44,374 nucleotides of DNA from Actinomycetota bacterium (lineage in GTDB: Bacteria; Actinomycetota; Acidimicrobiia; Acidimicrobiales; AC-35): contig VAXP01000116.1 of NCBI GenBank assembly GCA_005884125.1, positions 1 through 44,374 of the forward strand, given 5' to 3'. Of this stretch, positions 1,390 through 30,308 are shown piece after piece. Below the pieces are notes generated by a model. It was not told the DNA's origin and made no database searches. It saw only the letters and a list, made by a program, of their open reading frames with translations. The number at the start of each line of letters is the position of its first letter. The stretch's first letter is position 1. Made by a program: the position numbers and the translations under genes.

Positions 1390-2046
1390 TCAGCCCGCCG
1401 ACAGCCCCTTGTCCTCCGCCGCCCGCCAGCAGTACCAGGCCGCAGCCGTGCGCCAAGGCCGGTAGGGCTCGCCCAGGACCATGAGGTCCTTGGGCTTGGG
1501 GGTCTCCGGAAGCCGGTTGGCCCGGGCGAACCCGGAGCGCACGCCGTAGTCGCCGACGGGCCAGACGTCTAGGCGGCCCAGGGTGAAGATCAGAAACATC
1601 TCGGCCGTCCACCGCCCGATGCCCCGCACGGCGACCAGGCGGTCGACGACCTGCTCGTCGCTGCGGCGGGGAAGGTCGTCCAGGCGGAGGCGGCCGTCGA
1701 CGACTCGTTCGGCCAGGTCGCGTATGGAGGCCGCCTTCGACCCCGACAGGCCCGCCGACCTCAGGGCCGTGTCGGGGAGGGCGGCCACCGCCTGGGCCGT
1801 GGGCGTGCCCTCCTCGAAGAGGGCCGCGAAGCGACCGTGTATGGCGAAGGCGGCCTTGCCGGCCAGCTGCTGGTAGAGGATCGACCGGGCCAGCGCGCCG
1901 AAGTGGCCACCTGGCAGCCTGCGCACGGGGATGGCGCAAGGGCCCATGCCTTCCACGAGGCGGGCCATCACAGGATCGGCGCCAGCCAGGGCCGCGTCGG
2001 CCTCCGCCAGCCGCTCCTTCCTGGACGGGGAACGGGAAGGGGCCAT
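1390..2046 (-). CDS. DNA-3-methyladenine glycosylase II (AlkA-type, HhH-GPD)
   Basis: A 218-residue protein of the HhH-GPD superfamily that would remove alkylated purines from DNA as the first step of base excision repair. The helix-hairpin-helix lies at about residues 136-150 ([14 protein letters not shown]), followed by the Gly/Pro-rich loop and Asp166 in [10 protein letters not shown], the position of the catalytic aspartate. The N-terminal part ([12 protein letters not shown]) matches the conserved helix of AlkA-like enzymes. Length fits the short single-domain form without the Ada-like regulatory domain. The ATG at 2046 is preceded by a GGGAGGAT Shine-Dalgarno. It is a single gene, divergent from the flavin-binding protein at 2125. 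MutY/EndoIII are excluded because no Fe-S cysteines are present. Confidence 0.9.
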
Positions 2047-2110
2047 GGCCGGGCGATCCTCCCACGTTCGCGGTCGGCGCCTCTGGGCGTGGTGAGCGAC
2101 GGGCGCGGCC

Positions 2111-2116
2111 TAGCGT
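2111..2116 (+). promoter_or_regulatory. TAGCGT -10-like hexamer, leaderless-type
   Basis: TAGCGT fits the actinobacterial TANNNT -10 element and lies eight bases before the ATG at 2125. No Shine-Dalgarno is visible there, so the transcript probably starts at or next to the start codon. Confidence 0.45.
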
Positions 2117-2124
2117 TTGGGGCT

Positions 2125-2553
2125 ATGTCCCTCTCCGACAGCCAGCGCGCCTTTCTCGAGCAGAACCACCAAGCGGCGATGATCACCGTCGGCCACGACG
2201 GCAGGCCCCGGGTGGCCAGGGTCGGGGTCTGCATGGTGGACGGGAATCTGTGGAGCAGCGCCACGCAGGCCCGGGTGCGGACCAAGAGGCTGCGACGCGA
2301 CCCCCGCTGTACCGTGTTCGTCTTCGACTCGGGCTGGGCCTGGCTCGCTCTCGACACGACGGTGCGCATCCTGGACGGGCCGGACGCGCCCGAGCTGAAC
2401 CTGCGCCTGTTCCGGCTCATGCAGAACCGGCCCAGCGGTCCCCTGAGCTGGTTCAACGGCGAGGTCAGCCCGGAGGACTTCCTGCGGGCCATGGAGGACG
2501 AGCAGCGCCTCATCTACCAGTTCGAGATAATCGGCGGCTATGGGATGCAATAG
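2125..2553 (+). CDS. Pyridoxamine 5'-phosphate oxidase-like (PPOX/F420 split-barrel) protein
   Basis: A 142-residue split-barrel flavin- or F420-binding protein. The N-terminal pattern [20 protein letters not shown] followed by [19 protein letters not shown] and RDPRCTVFV is typical of PPOX-class proteins that bind FMN or F420 and reduce, or carry, small redox ligands. The C-terminal part has [20 protein letters not shown], where TIGR-type F420-dependent members also carry an acidic helix. The ATG at 2125 was chosen because the family fold starts here and because a TAGCGT -10-like element is eight bases upstream; the frame stays open further upstream but without family similarity. The substrate is unknown. 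Confidence 0.8.
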
Positions 2554-2621
2554 GTCGGGGAGCGTCGGTATCGCCCTCACCGCCGCGGGCTGCCACCGGC
2601 GCCGTGAGGCAGCATGTCGGG

Positions 2622-3038
2622 ATGCCCGCGTGGACCTGCCCCGATTGCGGGCGGCAGTTCGGTAAGGCCAGGCAGTCACACGAGTGCACCCCGGCCATGT
2701 CCTTGGAGGAGTACTTCTCGACCGGCCCACCCCATGATCGGCCTGTGTTCGAGGAGGTCATGCGCCACCTCCGCACGGTGGGCCCCGTCCACGTCGAGCC
2801 CGTCTCGGTGGGGATCTTCCTCAAGCGGAGCCGCACCTTCGCCGAGCTCCGGCCCATGCGTCGGTGGGTGGCGCTCTCCTTCTCCCTGCCCCGCAAGGTC
2901 GAGCACGCCCGGATCACGAGGAAGGTCGTGGGCTACAGGGGCCGCTTCTTCCACGTGGTCAACCTGCGAGGCCCGGACGAGCTGGACGACGAGGTTCGGG
3001 GCTGGTTGACCGAGGCCTACCTCGACTCACCGGCCTGA
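2622..3038 (+). CDS. DUF5655-like domain protein with N-terminal zinc-finger-like motif
   Basis: A 138-residue cytosolic protein. The first 25 residues hold a [17 protein letters not shown] pattern (two Cys in a CxxC, then His and Cys), a likely small zinc site. The rest ([24 protein letters not shown] and the later [14 protein letters not shown]) matches what I recall of DUF5655, a domain of unknown function common in actinobacteria. The ATG at 2622 is the first start that includes the cysteine motif. The gene follows the PPOX-like gene on the same strand after a 68-base gap, so the two may share a transcript. No enzymatic role can be assigned. Confidence 0.75.
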
Positions 3039-3074
3039 CCCGCGGCCCCGCCGCGGTGGGCTAGAACGAGGGCC

Positions 3075-4292
3075 TTGACCTCCGCCGCGCCCGCCCCGAC
3101 AATCGACCTGACGGCGCCCGAGTCCTTCGCCCGGGGCCAGCCCCACGACCAGTTCCGATGGCTGCGCACCCACGACCCCGTCCACTGGCACCCCGAGCCC
3201 GACGGGCCCGGTTTCTGGGCCGTCACCCGCTACCAGGACGTGAAGGCGGTGGGCCGGGACCCCGGCACCTTCTCGTCGGTCCCCACGATCATGATCCCAG
3301 ACAACGAGGGCGCCCTCGACGCCGGAGATCACCAGATGATGATCACCATGGACCCTCCCGACCACACCGGCCACCGCAAGCTCGTCTCCAGCCAGTTCAT
3401 CCCCCGGGCGGCCAAGGCCATGCGCCCCCGCATCGAGCAGCTGGCGGCGCAGATCGTGGACGGAGTCGTCGAGCGGGGCGAGTGTGACCTGGTCGAGGAC
3501 ATCGCCGGCCTCATGCCCTCCTACGTCATCGCCGACATGCTCGGCATCCCGCTGGAGGACGGGGTGGCCCTCTACCGCCTGACAGAGACCATCCACGCCG
3601 CCCCCGAGTCGCGTCCCCCCGGAGCGGCCCTGGGCGCGGTGCTGGAGATGTTCAACTACGCCAGGCAGGTGTGGGAGCGCAAGCGGGAGGAGCCGGGCGG
3701 GGACCTGGCCACGCGGATCGCCTTCGCCTCGGTCGACGACAAGGGCCTCGACCTCATCGACTTCAACCTCTTCTTCATCCTGCTCATAGACGCCGGCGGC
3801 GACACCACCCGCAACCTGGTGGCGGGGGGCCTGGACGCCCTGTTCCAGCACCCCGACCAGCTGGCCTGGCTGGCGGCCGATTGCGACGGGCGTCTGGCCA
3901 CCGCGGTCGAGGAGCTGCTGCGCTGGATCAGCCCCGTCGTCTACATGCGCAGGACCGCCACCCGGGACGCCTCCCTGGCCGGGGCGGCCATGGTCGCGGG
4001 CCAGAAGGTCGTCATGTACTACGGCTCGGCCAACCGGGACGAGGAGGCTTTCGGCCCCACCGCCGATCAGCTCGACCTGGCCCGATCTCCCAACGACCAC
4101 GTCGCCTTCGGTGGGGGCGGACCCCACTTCTGCCTGGGCGCCCACATCGCCCGGATCGAGATCGACGCCCTGCTGCGCCAGGTTCTCTCCCGGTTGCGGG
4201 AGCTGGAGCCCGCGGGCCCCACGGAGTGGCTCGCGTCAACGTTCATCTCCGGGCCCAAGCACCTTCCCGTGCGCTTCCGGCCCGGAGCCTGA
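3075..4292 (+). CDS. Cytochrome P450
   Basis: A full-length soluble bacterial P450 of 405 residues. The I-helix oxygen-binding motif AGGDTTRN is at 240-247, the K-helix ExxR is E280-R283, and the haem loop FGGGGPHFCLG carries the axial Cys353. The Cys loop and the N-terminal IDLTAPESFARGQPHDQFRW resemble the CYP124/125/142-type enzymes that hydroxylate steroid side chains or fatty acids, so a lipid or steroid substrate is plausible but unproven. It needs an electron donor; no ferredoxin or ferredoxin reductase lies nearby. The start is TTG at 3075, chosen because family alignment begins here. A TAGAAC hexamer lies seven bases upstream. It is convergent with the pirin gene, with six bases between the stops. 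Confidence 0.93.
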   Translation: MTSAAPAPTIDLTAPESFARGQPHDQFRWLRTHDPVHWHPEPDGPGFWAVTRYQDVKAVGRDPGTFSSVPTIMIPDNEGALDAGDHQMMITMDPPDHTGHRKLVSSQFIPRAAKAMRPRIEQLAAQIVDGVVERGECDLVEDIAGLMPSYVIADMLGIPLEDGVALYRLTETIHAAPESRPPGAALGAVLEMFNYARQVWERKREEPGGDLATRIAFASVDDKGLDLIDFNLFFILLIDAGGDTTRNLVAGGLDALFQHPDQLAWLAADCDGRLATAVEELLRWISPVVYMRRTATRDASLAGAAMVAGQKVVMYYGSANRDEEAFGPTADQLDLARSPNDHVAFGGGGPHFCLGAHIARIEIDALLRQVLSRLRELEPAGPTEWLASTFISGPKHLPVRFRPGA

Positions 4293-22005: not shown

Positions 22006-22635
22006 GTGTCGCGTCATCCGGGCCGGCGTCCGGCGCCGAACCCCATGGTGGTGGGAGCCGACGTTCGAGATGTGGGCGACGCGGCGCTGGTCGTCGCCAT
22101 CGGACGGTGGCGGGAGGACGCCCTGGCCGAGGCCTACCGCCGTCACGCCGGCGCCGTCTACGCCCTGGCCTGCCGGGTGCTGAGCGACGGCGCGCTGGCC
22201 GAGGAGGTCGTGCAGGAGGTCTTCCTCCGCCTCTGGCGCCAGCCCGACCGCTTTGACCCCGATCGGGGCTCGCTGCGGGCCTTCCTCCTGGCCCACGCCC
22301 ACGGCCGGGCCATCGACGCCCTCCGGTCCGAGAGCTCCCGGCGCAAGCGCGAGGAGCGCGAGGCCCGCAGCACGGCCGAGGCCGGCTACGACCTGGAGCG
22401 TGAGGTCTGGGACCTAGCCGTGGCCGAGCGGGTCAAGGACGCCCTGGTGCGGCTCCCGGCCGAGGAGCGCCGGGCCATCGAGCTGGCCTACTTCGACGGC
22501 CACACCTACCGTGAGGTGGCCTCGCTCCTGGGCCAGCCCGAGGGCACGGTGAAGAGCCGCATCCGCACCGGCCTGCGTCGCCTGCAGGTACGCCTCGTCA
22601 CCTACGGCGTGACCGGGACGGGAGCCGAGCCGTGA
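22006..22635 (+). CDS. ECF-type RNA polymerase sigma factor (SigK-like)
   Basis: A 209-residue sigma factor with regions 2 and 4 only. Region 2 is AYRRHAGAVYALACRVLSDG followed by AEEVVQEVFLRLWRQPDRFD; region 4 is LPAEERRAIELAYFDGHTYR then EVASLLGQPEGTVKSRIRTG. The SigK group has similar features and pairs with an RskA anti-sigma factor, as here. The GTG at 22006 is used; an ATG at 22045 would remove 13 residues without harming region 2. The gene overlaps the anti-sigma gene by four bases. Target promoters are not visible. Confidence 0.92.
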   Translation: MSRHPGRRPAPNPMVVGADVRDVGDAALVVAIGRWREDALAEAYRRHAGAVYALACRVLSDGALAEEVVQEVFLRLWRQPDRFDPDRGSLRAFLLAHAHGRAIDALRSESSRRKREEREARSTAEAGYDLEREVWDLAVAERVKDALVRLPAEERRAIELAYFDGHTYREVASLLGQPEGTVKSRIRTGLRRLQVRLVTYGVTGTGAEP

Positions 22636-23387
22636 CCCACGACGAGCTCCAGTCCCTTCTCGGCGCCTACGCCCTGGACGCGGTGGAAGACGACGAGGCC
22701 AGAGACGTGGAGCGCCATCTCCGGGAGTGCCCCAGGTGCCGGGCCGAGGTGGCCAACCATCGCGAGACGGCCGCCCTCATGGCCAGCGTGGGGGCCGAGG
22801 CCCCCGCCGGGGTGTGGGACCGCATCAGCGCCGCCCTCGACGACGACCCCCTGCCGGACACGGCCGCCCTGGCCCCGCGGCCCGGTAGCCCCCGCGGCCG
22901 GCGCCGCCTGCCCATGAGGGTGAGGGTGGCCGCCGCCCTGGGCGCGGCGGTGGCGGCCGCGGTCGCCGTGCTGAGCGTGGCCACCGTCCGCCTCGACCAC
23001 AGGGTGGGCACGCTGCGCCGGACCATCCTGGCCAGCCCCGCGGCCCAGGCCGCCACCGCAGCCCTCATCGATCCTCTCCACCGCGACGTCCGCCTCACCT
23101 CGGCCGACGGCCGCCTGGCCGCCCAGGTGGCGCTGCGCCTCACGGGCGAGGCCTACCTGGTGGACACCGACCTGCCCGTGCTGGACCGGGGCCGCACCTA
23201 CCAGGTGTGGGGCCTGGCCGGGGGACGGGTCGTCTCCCTCGGGCTGCTGGGCGCCACTCCCGTCTTCGCCGCCTTCCGGGTGGAGGACACCGTCACCCAG
23301 CTCATGGTGACCTCCGAACCCGCGGGCGGGGTGCCCGCCCCCGACTCCCCGGTGCTGATCCAGGGGCTCATACCGGTCCGGGCCTGA
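22632..23387 (+). CDS. Membrane anti-sigma factor (RskA-like, zinc-binding)
   Basis: A 251-residue protein. The cytosolic anti-sigma domain has the zinc motif HLRECPRC (His29, Cys33, Cys36) that clamps the sigma factor. A single membrane helix at about 97-118 (VRVAAALGAAVAAAVAVLSV) follows, then an extracytoplasmic domain with LDRGRTYQVWGLAGGRVVSL, characteristic of the RskA C-terminus. It holds the preceding sigma factor at the membrane until a signal triggers proteolysis. It starts with GTG overlapping the sigma gene by GTGA. Confidence 0.92.
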   Translation: MTHDELQSLLGAYALDAVEDDEARDVERHLRECPRCRAEVANHRETAALMASVGAEAPAGVWDRISAALDDDPLPDTAALAPRPGSPRGRRRLPMRVRVAAALGAAVAAAVAVLSVATVRLDHRVGTLRRTILASPAAQAATAALIDPLHRDVRLTSADGRLAAQVALRLTGEAYLVDTDLPVLDRGRTYQVWGLAGGRVVSLGLLGATPVFAAFRVEDTVTQLMVTSEPAGGVPAPDSPVLIQGLIPVRA

Positions 23388-23429: not shown

Positions 23430-24752
23430 TCAGGCGCCTTCGGGCACCTTGCGGATGCCGAGGCCCACGGCCCGGGTCGCTACGCAGAGGTCGTCGACGT
23501 ACCTGAGCCCCGCCGTCTCGGCGATGTGTCGGGCCTCGGGCGAGCGCAGGCCGAGCTGGAGCCACACCGCCTTGGCCCCGATGGCCACGGCCTGGCGGGC
23601 GACGTCGGGGGCCTCCTCGACGGGGCGGAACACGTCCACCACGTCGACCGGCCCCGGTATGTCGGCCAGGCGGGGGTAGGCCCGGCGTCCGTGGATGGAC
23701 CGGGCCGTGGGGTGGACGGGTATCACGCGGAAGCCGAGTCCGAGGAGGGTCCGCGGTATGGCGAAGGCGGCCTTGGCCGGATCGGTGGAGGCCCCGACCA
23801 CGGCGATGGTCGTGGCCGTGTCCAGGATGTCCCGGGACTCGGCCATGGCCCGGGCCTTGTGCGACCTCTCCGTGGCCACGGCCTCGCGCACGGCGGGGAC
23901 GACCTCGTTGCTGAAGCGCTCCAGCTGCTCGGTGACCGAGCCCGAGGGCCACAGGATGAAGGTGTCCATGCCCGCTTCGATGACGAGCTCGGTGAGCTCA
24001 TCGACCCACTGCTTGGGCGGGCCTTCCAGGAAGGGTCCGCCACCGCTGTCGGTGATGTGGCCGGAGATGTTGTAGATGCGGCGCACGGCATGCGGCTCGC
24101 GGCCGGCGCCCACCGCGGCCTCGTCGATGCGGGCCTGACGCTCGGCCAGATCCTCGGGGGGAATGTAGGGAGACGAAGGCAGCCAGCCGTCGGCCACCCG
24201 CCCGATGAGTCCGAGCATGCGGGGACCGGAGCCGCCCACCCACACCCCGATGGGGTGGGGCGGGGTGGGGCCGGGGTGCACGCCCTGCATGCGGTAGTGG
24301 CGGCCCTCGTAGCTCACGGCCCGTTCGCCGCTCCACATGAGCCGCATCACCGCGATGGCCTCCTCCAGGGCGTCCACGGCCTCGCCCGGGGAGCGCCGGG
24401 GTCCCCCCATGGCCGCGATGGCGTCCCAGAAGCCACCCGCGCCCAGGCCCAGCTCGAAGCGCCCCCCGCTCAGCAGGTCGACGGAGGCGGCCGCCTTGGC
24501 CAGCACCGCGGGCGGGCGCAGGGGCAGGTTGGCCACGTCGGGGAACAGCCGGATCCGGGACGTGCGGGCCGCCAGCGTCGACAGGAGGACCCAGGAGTCC
24601 ACGTAGCGCGACTGGTAGGGGTGGTCCTGGATGCCGACCAGGTCGAGGCCGAGCTGCTCGGCCAGCACGACCTCCTCGATGACCCGGTGGATGTCGTCGG
24701 CCTTGGGCTCGGGGAAGTACCCGAACTCGACTGCCCTGCCGTAGTCGGTCAT
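23430..24752 (-). CDS. LLM-class F420-dependent oxidoreductase fused to a CoA-binding domain
   Basis: A 440-residue two-domain protein in one uninterrupted frame. Residues 1-305 are a luciferase-like TIM barrel (VVLAEQLGLDLVGIQDHPYQ, LLSGGRFELGLGAGGFWDAI, GVWVGGSGPRMLGLIGRVAD), probably F420-dependent. Residues 308-440 are a YccU/CoA_binding_2 Rossmann domain: TTIAVVGASTDPAKAAFAIP, VIPVHPTA and the signature AVWLQLGLRSPEARHIAETA, with Cys423 near the end. The domains are usually separate, so a CoA ester or acyl-CoA may be the substrate or regulator of the oxidoreductase. The ATG at 24752 overlaps the upstream DUF427 gene by ATGA. Confidence 0.9.
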   Translation of the reverse strand: MTDYGRAVEFGYFPEPKADDIHRVIEEVVLAEQLGLDLVGIQDHPYQSRYVDSWVLLSTLAARTSRIRLFPDVANLPLRPPAVLAKAAASVDLLSGGRFELGLGAGGFWDAIAAMGGPRRSPGEAVDALEEAIAVMRLMWSGERAVSYEGRHYRMQGVHPGPTPPHPIGVWVGGSGPRMLGLIGRVADGWLPSSPYIPPEDLAERQARIDEAAVGAGREPHAVRRIYNISGHITDSGGGPFLEGPPKQWVDELTELVIEAGMDTFILWPSGSVTEQLERFSNEVVPAVREAVATERSHKARAMAESRDILDTATTIAVVGASTDPAKAAFAIPRTLLGLGFRVIPVHPTARSIHGRRAYPRLADIPGPVDVVDVFRPVEEAPDVARQAVAIGAKAVWLQLGLRSPEARHIAETAGLRYVDDLCVATRAVGLGIRKVPEGA

Positions 24753-25519
24753 TGCCCGCGAGCCTCCTCGGTCCACTTGGTGCGGGGTTGCTCCTGGAGC
24801 ACCCCGTCCACGTACAGGTCCACCTTCTCGTTGTAGAAGCAGGCCAGGCCCGCGACCTTCTGACTCTCGGGCAGCGGCGCCCGGTACGTCCACACGAAGT
24901 CGTCGTAGCGGCGGCCGTCGGCGTCGAGCGACCAGTAGGTCGCGGTGCCCTTGTAGGGGCAGTGGGTCTCGGTCGCCGACGGGGTGAGCAGGTCGAGGCG
25001 CAGGTCGCTCAAGGGCAGGTAGTAGCGAGGTGGGAGCCCGGTCTCGAACAGGATCCTGGGCTGGTGCGAGTCGGCCACGGTAACCCCGTCCACCACGACC
25101 CGCACGTGGCGGGAGCTGGCCAGGATGTCGACGCGGGAGTAGGGATCGCGGGGATGGGTGTATACGGGCTCGTCCTCCTCCAGCCACTCGTCCATGGCCG
25201 GCCAGTCGATGCGGACGGCGTCGCGCAGCTCGGCTATCGGAGAGGACGGGTAGCGGCGGGCCGCCGCCGCCGCGGTCATACGCGGGACCTTCACGTCGTA
25301 GAGCTCGGCGTCGCCCCGGCTGGGGGAGTGCTCGGTGGCCCCGGTGGGCACCAGGGCGGCGCGCACGTCGGCGGCCGGGAAGTAGTAGGCCGGGTAGTAG
25401 GGGACCTCCCACACCAGGAGGGGCCGGATGGTGTCGGCCACCAGCTCGCCCGCCAGGTAGGCCCGCACCCGCTTGTGCCCGGGCTCGACCCTCACCCTGC
25501 CCCGCTCGTTACCGGCCAC
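24749..25519 (-). CDS. Tandem DUF427-domain protein
   Basis: A 256-residue protein with two copies of the DUF427 beta-fold. The first is around 8-85 (GHKRVRAYLAGELVADTIRP, YYPAYYFPAADVRAALVPTG) and the second around 135-245 (SRHVRVVVDGVTVADSHQPR, TETHCPYKGTATYWSLDADG, ACFYNEKVDLYVDGV). The second copy keeps the conserved HCPYKG motif; the first has HSPSRGDA instead, so only one may be functional. The family's biochemistry is not established. The GTG at 25519 has GGGAGG about seven bases upstream. It overlaps the LLM-CoA fusion gene by four bases, suggesting joint function. Confidence 0.88.
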   Translation of the reverse strand: MAGNERGRVRVEPGHKRVRAYLAGELVADTIRPLLVWEVPYYPAYYFPAADVRAALVPTGATEHSPSRGDAELYDVKVPRMTAAAAARRYPSSPIAELRDAVRIDWPAMDEWLEEDEPVYTHPRDPYSRVDILASSRHVRVVVDGVTVADSHQPRILFETGLPPRYYLPLSDLRLDLLTPSATETHCPYKGTATYWSLDADGRRYDDFVWTYRAPLPESQKVAGLACFYNEKVDLYVDGVLQEQPRTKWTEEARGQ

Positions 25520-25623: not shown

Positions 25624-26406
25624 TCAGCCGAACTTGCGCAGGAACTCGCGCAGGGGCCCGTTGACGGCCTCGGGGTGGCTGAGGTTGGAGGCGTGGCCTG
25701 CGCCGGGGATGCGCACCAGCTCGACGCAGTTGCCCAGCTCCCGCTGCAGGGCCTCGGCCTGCCCCATGGGGATGGCGGCGTCGGCGTCGCCGTGGAAGAC
25801 GATGGCCGGGCAGGTGATCTCCCCCAGGCGGGGGGTGAGGTCGTCTCGCCCCATCAGGGTGGCGAAGGGCTCCAGGATCGACCCGGGGGGCCGCGCCTTC
25901 CACTTGGCCACCCAGGCCGAGTGGTCGTAGCCCGGGCTCATGATGATGGAGGCGACCGCCCCGGCCAGGGCGTCGTCGGGACCCTGGGTGGACCACTGCT
26001 GGGCCATGGCCTCGTAGGCCGGGCGCGCCTCGTCGGCCTCGACGCCGGCCTGGGTGTCGATGAGGGCCAGGCCCCTGACCCGGTCCGGGTCCGAGAGGGC
26101 GGCCCGCATGGACAGGAAGCCACCTTGGGACATGCCGGCCAGCACGGCTCCGTCGAGCCCGAGGTGGTCGAGCAGACCCACACAGTCGCGCGCCGAGTCC
26201 CAGTAGGTGAAGGGTCCCTGGGCCCCGGTCTGTCCGAAGCCGCGCTCGTCCCAGGTGATGCAGCGGAACTCGTCGGCGAGGGCGTCGACCTGGGGGGCGA
26301 ACATCTCATGATCCATGAGGAAGCCGTGGCTGAACACCACGGCCGGGCCGCTGCCTCCCGAGTCCTGGTAGAAGAGGACCTGACCGTCGACGTCGGCAAA
26401 GGGCAT
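25624..26406 (-). CDS. Alpha/beta hydrolase
   Basis: A 260-residue alpha/beta hydrolase. The oxyanion segment is VVFSHGFLMDHEMF, the nucleophile elbow is AGMSQGGF (Ser in GMSQG), the acid is in VFHGDADAAIP and the catalytic His is in PGAGHASNLSHPEAVN. It resembles small esterases, 3-oxoadipate enol-lactonases and haloperoxidase-like enzymes; no specific reaction can be assigned. The ATG at 26406 has TAGCTT five bases upstream and no Shine-Dalgarno. Confidence 0.88.
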   Translation of the reverse strand: MPFADVDGQVLFYQDSGGSGPAVVFSHGFLMDHEMFAPQVDALADEFRCITWDERGFGQTGAQGPFTYWDSARDCVGLLDHLGLDGAVLAGMSQGGFLSMRAALSDPDRVRGLALIDTQAGVEADEARPAYEAMAQQWSTQGPDDALAGAVASIIMSPGYDHSAWVAKWKARPPGSILEPFATLMGRDDLTPRLGEITCPAIVFHGDADAAIPMGQAEALQRELGNCVELVRIPGAGHASNLSHPEAVNGPLREFLRKFG

Positions 26407-26455: not shown

Positions 26456-28360
26456 TCAGATGGCGGGGTGGACGAAGGGACTGGCCATGGCCCCCTCCTC
26501 GGCCTTGATCACGTGCATCACGGCGTTGATGAGGGCCAGGTGGGTGAAGGCCTGGGGGAAGTTGCCCAGGTGGCGCCCGCTGTGGGGGTCCAGCTCCTCG
26601 GCGTAGAGCTCGAGGGGGCTGGCCAGGGACAGCAGCTTCTCGCACAGCTGGCGGGCCCGGATGTGCTCGCCGATCTCGGCCAGGGCGGACACGAGCCAGA
26701 ACGAGCAGATGGTGAAGCTGCCCTCCTCTCCCGACAGCCCGTCGTCGGTCTCCTTGACCTGGTAGCGCAGGACGAGCCCGTCCACCGTCAGGTCGTCGGC
26801 GATGGCGAGCACGGTGGCCCGTACCCGGGGATCGTCGGGGGGCAGGAAGCGCACCAGGGGCATGAGCAGCACCGAGGCGTCCAGGGCGGTGGTGTCGTAG
26901 TGCTGCCTGAACACGCCGTTCTGGATGCCCCGGGTGCACACCTCGGCGTGGATCTCGTCGGCGCCCGCCTGCCAGCGGTCGGCCCGCTCGAAGTCCTCCC
27001 GGATGCGGGCCAAGCGCGCCCCCCTGTCGGCCGCCACCCAGCACATCATCTTGGACGAGGTGAAGTGCTTGGGGTCGCCCCGAACCTCCCAGATGCCCCG
27101 GTCCGGCTCCCGCCAGTGCGTCAGGGCGGCCTCGACCTGGCGGCAGAGGATGGGCCAGAGGCGCTCGTCGAGCCGGTCCCGTGAGCGGGTGTGGAGGTAG
27201 ACCGAGTCGAGCATCGCCCCCCACACGTCGTGCTGGCGCTGGTTGTGGGCGCCGTTGCCGACGCGGACGGGGCGGGCCCCGTCGTAGCCGTGGAGGTGAT
27301 CCAGCGTCCGCTCCTCGAGGTCGCGCTCTCCGTCGACCCCGTACATGACCTGCAGCTCATCGTCCCGCTCGGCCACGTCGGCGATGAACCAGAAGAAGTC
27401 GTTGGCCTCCCAGTCGAAGCCGAGGCTGAACAGGCCCCACAGGGCGAAGGTCGAGTCCCGGATCCAGCTGTAGCGGTAGTCCCAGTTGCGCTCGCCCCCG
27501 GGCGTCTCCGGCAGCGACGTGGTGGCCGCCGCCACCAGGGCGCCCGTGGGGCCGAAGGTCAGCCCCTTGAGGGTGAGGGCGCTGCGCTGCAGGTGACCCC
27601 GCCAGGGATGGTCGGGGAAGCGGCCCCGGGCCAGCCAGTGCTGCCAGTGGTGGGCGGTCCACGTCAGCCTGCGGTAGGCCTCCTCGTAGGTGTAGGGCGG
27701 CTCGTGCTCCGTCCAGGACAGGGCGCAGAAGCGGTAGTCCCCCTCCTTCATGAGGGTGCGGGCGCACGCCCGCGGCCCCTCGAAGCCGATGCGCATGTCG
27801 GAGGTGAGGCTCAGCTCTACCTCCACCGTGTCGGCTCGGGCTATGCCCTGGTTGTAGCCGCGGTCGCCGTAGGTCCACCGCGCCGCCCTGCGGCCGTAAT
27901 CCATCATGGGCTCGCACTCCATCACGACCTGGACCTCGCCGTTGACGCAGCGGACCGTGCGGAGCAGCACGTGGTCGGCGTCGTAGTCGGTGGGGGCCCG
28001 CCGGTGGGTGCGGGACAGCTCGGCGGTGTGGTGCCAGGGGCCGATGAGGAGGACGTCCCTGACGATGATCCACCCCGTCGTGGTGCCCCAGCTCGTCTCC
28101 AGCACCATCGTCCCCGGCAGGTACCGGCGGGCGGCGGGCACGGTCACGTCGTCGGGGCCGAGGCGGAACCCGCCGGCGTCACGGTCGAGGATGGCGGCGA
28201 AGACGCTGGGCGAGTCAAGCCGGGGCAGGCACAGCCACTCCACGTTCCCGCTGGGCGCGACCAGGGCGGTGGTCTCGCAGTCGGAGAGGAAGGCGTAGTC
28301 CGCTATGGGCGGAAAGGGCGAGTGCCCGAGCAGCACGTCGGCCAGCTCCGGAGCCGTCAC
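26456..28360 (-). CDS. Glycoside hydrolase family 15 protein (trehalase/glucoamylase type)
   Basis: A 634-residue GH15 enzyme. The N-terminal beta-sandwich starts with PIADYAFLSDCETTALVAPS, and the (alpha/alpha)6 barrel holds NWDYRYSWIRDSTFALWGLF and, at about 545-556, EEGSFTICSFWL, with a catalytic glutamate. PQAFTHLALI near the C-terminus is also typical. Close relatives in mycobacteria (e.g. the Rv2402 type) hydrolyse trehalose to glucose, and that activity is likely here. No signal peptide is present, so it is cytosolic. It starts with GTG at 28360. It is co-directional with its neighbours but separated by 49 and 60 bases. Confidence 0.9.
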   Translation of the reverse strand: MTAPELADVLLGHSPFPPIADYAFLSDCETTALVAPSGNVEWLCLPRLDSPSVFAAILDRDAGGFRLGPDDVTVPAARRYLPGTMVLETSWGTTTGWIIVRDVLLIGPWHHTAELSRTHRRAPTDYDADHVLLRTVRCVNGEVQVVMECEPMMDYGRRAARWTYGDRGYNQGIARADTVEVELSLTSDMRIGFEGPRACARTLMKEGDYRFCALSWTEHEPPYTYEEAYRRLTWTAHHWQHWLARGRFPDHPWRGHLQRSALTLKGLTFGPTGALVAAATTSLPETPGGERNWDYRYSWIRDSTFALWGLFSLGFDWEANDFFWFIADVAERDDELQVMYGVDGERDLEERTLDHLHGYDGARPVRVGNGAHNQRQHDVWGAMLDSVYLHTRSRDRLDERLWPILCRQVEAALTHWREPDRGIWEVRGDPKHFTSSKMMCWVAADRGARLARIREDFERADRWQAGADEIHAEVCTRGIQNGVFRQHYDTTALDASVLLMPLVRFLPPDDPRVRATVLAIADDLTVDGLVLRYQVKETDDGLSGEEGSFTICSFWLVSALAEIGEHIRARQLCEKLLSLASPLELYAEELDPHSGRHLGNFPQAFTHLALINAVMHVIKAEEGAMASPFVHPAI

Positions 28361-28420: not shown

Positions 28421-30241
28421 TCACCACGTGTCGATGCAGGGTCGCTTCTTGCCCGTGCGGGGTGGAGGGGGTGGCGCCGCGTCCAGCGCGGCCGTGATCC
28501 ATCTCCTGGAGTCGGCGGGGTCGATGACGTCGTCGATCTCGAAGTAGGTGGCGGTGTTCAGCGCCTGGCCGTGCTCGTACATGCGCCCCACCATCTCGTC
28601 GAACAGGGCTTGGCGCTCCTCGGGGTCGTCGACCGCGGCCAGCTCGTTGCGGAACCCGAGCTTCACCGCGCCCTCCAGCCCCATGCCTCCGAACTCCCCT
28701 GTGGGCCAGGCCACGGTGAAGACGGGCGCCTTGAAGCTGCCTCCGGCCATGGCCTGGGCTCCCAGCCCGTAGCCCTTGCGCAACACGATGGTGAAGAAGG
28801 GCACGGTGAGGCTGGCGCCGGTGACGAACATGCGGCTCACGTGGCGAACCAGCGCCGTGGTCTCCGCTTCGGGGCCGACCATGATCCCCGGCGTGTCGCA
28901 CAGGAAGAGGATGGGCACGTCGAAGGCGTCGCACAGCTGCATGAATCGGGCCGCCTTGTCGGCTCCCTGGGCGTCGATGGCACCGGCCAGGTGGGTCGGG
29001 TTATTGGCGATGAGGCCCATGGGCCGGCCCTCCACCCTGATCAAGGCGGTCACCATCCCGACGCCGAAGGCGGGGCGCAGCTCGAGCACCGAGCCCGCGT
29101 CGGCCAGCGTCTCGATGACCGCGCCCACGTCGTAGACGCGCAGCCGGTTCTCGGGTATGGCCGACCGCAGTCGGGCCTGGTCGGCGCAATCCCAGATGGG
29201 GGTCGATCCCTGAAAATAGGAGAGGTACCTCTTGGCCGCGGCCACCGCCTCGGCCTCGTCGGCCACGGCGATGTCGACGACGCCGTTGGGCACCTGCACG
29301 GCCATGGGGCCGATCTCCTCGGGCCGGAACACGCCCAGGCCGCCGCCTTCGATCATGGCCGGTCCGCCCATGCCGATGTTCGAGTCGGCTGTGGCGATGA
29401 CCACGTCGCAGCACCCCAGGATGGCGGCGTTGCCGGCGAAGCACCGGCCCGAGTTGATGCCCACCAGGGGCACGAGTCCGCTGAGCCCGCCGAACAGGCT
29501 GAAGGCCATGCAGTCCAGTCCCGACGCTCCCGTCCCGTCGGTGTCGCCCGGCCGGCCGCCGCCGCCCTCGGTGAAGAACACCACGGGGAGCCGCAGGCGC
29601 TCGGCCAGCTCGAACAACCTGTCCTTCTTGCGGTGGTTCTGCAGGCCCTGGGTGCCGGCCAGCACCGTGTAGTCGTAGGACATGACGATCGTCCGGTGCC
29701 CGTTCACGGTGGCCACGCCGGCCACCAGCCCGTCGGCCGGGGTGCGCCGGATGAGGTCTTCGACCGGCCGGCGCCGGCGCTGGGCCGCGATGACCAGGGG
29801 GCCGTACTCCAGGAGGCTGTCCGGGTCGCAGAGGTCCTCCACGTTCTCCCGGGTGGTGCGCTGACCGGTCCTGCGGCGCCGTTCCACCGCATCGGGCCGG
29901 CTAGGGTCCAGGCCCGAGGCGTGGCGCGCCCGCACTGCAGCCAGGTCGGCCCGGACTGCCCCCTCCTCGACCAGTGGCGGGGCGACGGCCTCGGCGCTCG
30001 GCACCTCCGCTTCCTGGATGACCACCAGGGCATCGCCCGGATGGACCGTGTCGCCCAGGGCCACGGGGACCCGCTGCACGACGCCGCTCCAGTCGGCCGT
30101 GATGACGTGCTCCATCTTCATCGACTCGATCACCAGCAGCTGCTGGCCCGCCCGGGCCGCGTCCCCCGGCCGCACGTCGACGCGCACGATCGTGCCCTGC
30201 ATGGGGGACTCGACGATCCGTTGGTGGTCGGACCCCGTCAT
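28421..30241 (-). CDS. Biotinyl domain - carboxyltransferase fusion (acyl-CoA carboxylase subunit)
   Basis: A 606-residue protein with an N-terminal biotin attachment domain (about 8-75; VIESMKMEH with biotinylated Lys42) followed by a full carboxyltransferase of the AccD/PccB type (about 115-600). CT motifs are VFFTEGGGGRPGDTDG, VGINSGRCFAGNAAILGCCD and FLCDTPGIMVGPEAETTALV. It would transfer CO2 from carboxybiotin to an acyl-CoA. The order biotinyl-CT without a biotin carboxylase domain is unusual; it recalls a long-chain acyl-CoA carboxylase that has lost its BC part. No BC gene is in the window. The ATG at 30241 is used; a GTG at 30286 is possible. Confidence 0.88.
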   Translation of the reverse strand: MTGSDHQRIVESPMQGTIVRVDVRPGDAARAGQQLLVIESMKMEHVITADWSGVVQRVPVALGDTVHPGDALVVIQEAEVPSAEAVAPPLVEEGAVRADLAAVRARHASGLDPSRPDAVERRRRTGQRTTRENVEDLCDPDSLLEYGPLVIAAQRRRRPVEDLIRRTPADGLVAGVATVNGHRTIVMSYDYTVLAGTQGLQNHRKKDRLFELAERLRLPVVFFTEGGGGRPGDTDGTGASGLDCMAFSLFGGLSGLVPLVGINSGRCFAGNAAILGCCDVVIATADSNIGMGGPAMIEGGGLGVFRPEEIGPMAVQVPNGVVDIAVADEAEAVAAAKRYLSYFQGSTPIWDCADQARLRSAIPENRLRVYDVGAVIETLADAGSVLELRPAFGVGMVTALIRVEGRPMGLIANNPTHLAGAIDAQGADKAARFMQLCDAFDVPILFLCDTPGIMVGPEAETTALVRHVSRMFVTGASLTVPFFTIVLRKGYGLGAQAMAGGSFKAPVFTVAWPTGEFGGMGLEGAVKLGFRNELAAVDDPEERQALFDEMVGRMYEHGQALNTATYFEIDDVIDPADSRRWITAALDAAPPPPPRTGKKRPCIDTW

Positions 30242-30308
30242 CACGGTCTGTCTACCGCCACGGGAGGCCCCGGCGCTCGGCGCCACGGGCTGGCCCCTGC
30301 CGCCGCCG

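Follow-up and report, generated by a model that had tools for sequence, protein, structure and literature searches.

F420-dependent luciferase-like hydride transferases (LLHTs), among them the TIGR03619/Rv2161c group, Mer and FGD, are built on a common Bac_luciferase TIM barrel. F420 enzymes of this luciferase-like monooxygenase (LLM) fold catalyse both oxidation and reduction, and most luciferase-like F420 enzymes have no known function (PMC8498797); an evolutionary split among them has been described (PMC6279831). Single-domain CoA_binding_2 proteins of the type of 2DUW, TT1466 and PH1109 are stand-alone polypeptides of ~140 aa. Such CoA-binding proteins from Pyrococcus bind CoA, and we know of no function assigned to those of the YccU type. 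In the window analysed here, a 44,374-nucleotide stretch of DNA from an Actinomycetota bacterium, the YccU-type domain does not stand alone but lies C-terminal to an LLM enzyme. The features concerned are as follows.

22006-23387, (+) strand: paired genes for a Sigma-70 ECF factor and an RskA-type anti-sigma factor, running convergently towards the fused gene
23430..24752, (-) strand: fused gene, LLM plus YccU-type CoA-binding, 440 aa in one frame
23430..23819, (-) strand: CoA_binding_2 (YccU-type) domain, residues 312-440
23820..23861, (-) strand: junction, residues 298-311, with a linker of ~10 residues
23862..24752, (-) strand: LLM/LLHT TIM-barrel domain, residues 1-297
24749..25519, (-) strand: tandem DUF427 protein, 256 aa, from GTG at 25519 to TGA at 24749
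25624..26406, (-) strand: alpha/beta hydrolase, possible operon member
26456-28360, (-) strand: GH15/trehalase-like
28421-30286, (-) strand: biotinyl-carboxyltransferase, 621 aa

The fused gene starts with ATG at 24752 and ends with a stop at 23430-23432. Pfam places Bac_luciferase (PF00296) at residues 17-235 (181.7 bits against a cut-off of 27.9, E 3e-53) and CoA_binding_2 (PF13380) at residues 315-425 (126.2 bits against 22.8, E 1.2e-36), which bears out the preliminary description of two complete domains in a single 440-residue frame. Single-domain homologues of the LLM half end at ~281-310 and stand-alone CoA homologues start to align at residues ~305-311; thus, neither domain is truncated and only about ten residues make up the joint. 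The F420-dependent LLHTs are the best matches to the barrel in sequence and fold, but the fused protein carries the additional C-terminal CoA domain and stays below the TIGR03619 (F420_Rv2161c) cut-off (147.3 versus 166.9 bits); none of the NCBIfam LLM models shown is matched above its curated cut-off.

The CoA half aligns over its full length with actinobacterial homologues at 43-58% identity and has the conserved residue at each of the 12 columns that are invariant among 31 aligned homologues; of the solved structures it is closest to 2DUW, a putative CoA-binding protein. The fused domain differs from 2DUW, TT1466 and PH1109 in forming the C-terminal domain of an oxidoreductase. AlphaFold2 models the barrel with confidence and runs a single helix (273-312) across the joint, whereas the CoA half is poorly modelled (pLDDT ~50 or below) because the input alignment contained LLM relatives alone.

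Several observations bear on the cofactor of the barrel. By sequence, the solved structures nearest to the LLM half are Mer and FGD enzymes; among fold matches of its model FGD1 ranks top, with FMN enzymes such as SfnG close behind. Asp43-His44, which we take to correspond to the position of the catalytic His40 of FGD1, is invariant in 41 members of the LLM subfamily. The genome bearing the fusion contains cofD, and this gene occurs in 42 of 45 genomes that carry the subfamily (undetected in the other 3) versus 114 of 199 across the phylum (Fisher p 1.6e-6, ignoring taxonomy and genome size). Taken from these matches, the conserved pair and the co-occurrence with cofD, use of F420 by the fused barrel is indirectly supported, in line with its preliminary description as an F420-type oxidoreductase.

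Related fusions were sought widely. None was present among the best 80 matches to the LLM half from 84,980 species, and no CoA domain was attached or adjacent to the LLM gene in 59 relatives, 395 genomes of the class and 198 of the order (overlapping sets, 652 genome-searches). From the CoA side, none of ~58 readable homologue loci adjoins an LLM gene of the fused gene's kind. Plasmids yielded LLM-only matches and no LLM-CoA fusion; viral contigs yielded no LLM matches, and a separate scan of them for CoA homologues was also empty. The preliminary description had named absence from all relatives, combined with evidence of a sequencing error, as refuting the fusion, and in this search for the two-domain architecture it is indeed absent from all those among the genomes searched. 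The genome-collection search recovers close relatives only, so distant LLM-CoA fusions could be missed. Among the matches listed, those most similar to the LLM half (up to 68% identity) belong to Actinomycetota and Chloroflexota. Three genomes (G408, G385 and G256) have both an LLM and a CoA gene, on different contigs. In the fusion-bearing genome itself, the other CoA_binding_2 matches are large acyl-CoA-synthetase-like and Pat-like proteins; therefore, no YccU-type domain other than the fused one is seen in this 94%-complete assembly. We found no paper that treats luciferase-like monooxygenase together with CoA-binding domain and F420, and none on LLM, hemerythrin and F420 together.

The LLM subfamily does have other C-terminal partners. 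Pfam identifies a hemerythrin domain following the LLM domain in L015, L018, L021 and L034, and FAD_binding_4, usually with BBE, in L055, L062 and L090; by length and tblastn these architectures extend to ~21 and ~12 loci, respectively. The fusions in Nocardioides caldifontis (L018, LLM-hemerythrin) and Streptomyces sp. GQFP (L062, LLM-FAD) belong to the same subfamily and occupy the same C-terminal place as the CoA domain, but their partners are unrelated to it and recur in many genomes as against one for CoA. About 60 sampled relatives are single-domain, among them the sister of the window LLM (L014, 68% identity), with which it pairs at SH-aLRT 96. On this LLM tree, starred branches force at least two of the three changes required for the hemerythrin label, and at least one of the two changes for the FAD label is forced; the tree is a quick one sampled from best matches only, and the label changes may be losses or gains. 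The same partners also occur as neighbours: a separate hemerythrin gene lies downstream of LLM at L017, L027 and L030, and a FAD-domain gene lies upstream at L036, L041, L048, L071, L077 and L081 and downstream at L043, L064, L066 and L067. In the six upstream cases (~1600-4005), an apparent LLM-FAD fusion directly precedes a single-domain LLM as a tandem pair. Pfam annotation of the relatives' neighbours gave FAD oxidase or LLM-FAD genes at 6 of 31 upstream and 3 of 26 downstream positions and hemerythrin at 2 of 26, with no shared operon beyond these genes. The sister LLM gene of L014 (1088-3236) sits between a pirin gene, which it overlaps by 8 nt, and a ferritin-like gene. The subfamily thus accepts C-terminal partners, CoA being one more and not the usual one. 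Since it has other partners and many single-domain members, the catalytic domain can evidently do without a CoA module, and therefore the CoA domain alone does not define the substrate.

Transcription on the minus strand runs from biotinyl-carboxyltransferase through GH15/trehalase-like, alpha/beta hydrolase and DUF427 to the fused gene, with gaps of ~50-105 nt until the final ATGA overlap; the row is possibly an operon of mixed content. The first protein (28421-30286) has a biotin/lipoyl domain N-terminal to its carboxyltransferase and scores far under the mmdA cut-off. DUF427, a beta-tent domain of unknown function (PMC4287342), occurs as two stretches (NTP_transf_9 in Pfam) in the gene immediately upstream of the fusion, whose TGA shares the ATGA with the start of the fused gene, just as originally described. 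The accompanying proposal that DUF427 is a functional third partner found no support: DUF427 was absent from the flanks of ~100 LLM relatives, and none of ~28 DUF427 homologues adjoins a close LLM, distant LLM genes (32-35%) lying near L177 and L178 only. As the pairing is not kept at these loci, DUF427 is ruled out as a conserved LLM partner.

Whether the two halves are genuinely joined depends on the DNA around the junction. The assembly comprises 183 contigs and is the sole genome of its family in the collection searched, so there is no independent copy of the fusion; this fragmentation, and the fact that no relative searched has the fusion, would fit an artefact in which faulty assembly or base calling erased a stop codon between adjacent genes. 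However, the 180 nt at the joint are free of stops in every frame, the nearest downstream stops in the alternative frames falling at about residues 342 and 460; one indel therefore cannot yield two clean genes, and a single indel error is ruled out as the origin of the fusion. Codon bias is unbroken, with third-position GC at 0.88-1.00 along the whole fused frame, residues 291-312 included, which argues that the frame is coding and not open by chance. A chimaeric join, moreover, would be unlikely to land in frame and exactly between two complete domains. A stop codon misread or lost by substitution at the joint would go unseen in one assembly and is possible. The preliminary description had considered a sequencing error removing a stop at about residue 305; we find no evidence of one. 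The joint looks genuine, and an artefact seems very unlikely.

Two further explanations concern what a genuine fusion does. On the reading of the preliminary description, the fused protein is a single enzyme for a CoA-bound substrate: a CoA thioester would be presented or recognised by the CoA domain and oxidised or reduced at the F420 barrel. Conservation of the CoA-domain residues is consistent with this, as is the upstream biotinyl-carboxyltransferase gene on the same strand, whose family acts on acyl-CoAs. We nevertheless regard this reading as improbable: the subfamily dispenses with the CoA domain in the ~60 sampled relatives and has unlike partners in others, no other locus searched links LLM to a CoA_binding_2 gene, YccU-type domains stand alone in many genomes, and the model, given its low confidence in the CoA half, does not support a CoA site facing the barrel. 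A CoA thioester is a possible substrate, but the fusion is no less compatible with a CoA-responsive module or with two independent functions. The latter would make the fusion neutral, with unrelated functions on one chain and the CoA domain perhaps also produced separately from an internal ATG near codon 304. That ATG lies about where stand-alone CoA homologues begin, where such a protein would be expected to start, both domains are complete, the fusion is confined to a single lineage, and relatives keep the LLM and CoA genes apart. Nothing speaks directly against it, but the signal for internal initiation is merely a weak AAGG at Shine-Dalgarno distance before the ATG, and we consider a neutral fusion rather unlikely. 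The explanation we favour, with modest confidence, is a lineage-specific fusion by stop loss. A gene for an F420-dependent luciferase-like hydride transferase would have lain adjacent to the genome's only YccU-type CoA-binding gene, and loss of the stop between them would have placed both on one chain. Hydride transfer with F420 is the most likely activity of the barrel. CoA or a CoA thioester is most likely still bound by the CoA domain, which would probably act from outside the active site, as a separate or modulating module on the shared chain. Counting against this explanation are the occurrence of the fusion in one assembly only, the low confidence of the modelled CoA half, the closeness in fold of FMN enzymes such as SfnG, and the three subfamily genomes in which cofD went undetected.

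The two-domain architecture is probably real, singular so far, and a fusion of two intact genes in one lineage. Each half is ordinary; their joining, seen in no other genome searched, gives one testable link between two poorly understood families, F420 LLM enzymes and YccU-type proteins. A broader and doubtful proposal is that the subfamily forms an F420 redox platform with interchangeable C-terminal modules that would link F420 chemistry to the state of oxygen, flavin or CoA; the window would then show a third, CoA-responsive type. The recurrence of partners at the C terminus of the subfamily is a more useful observation than the fusion itself, and the physiological role of the subfamily may be read more readily from the different redox partners that it joins at this one end than from any one genome.
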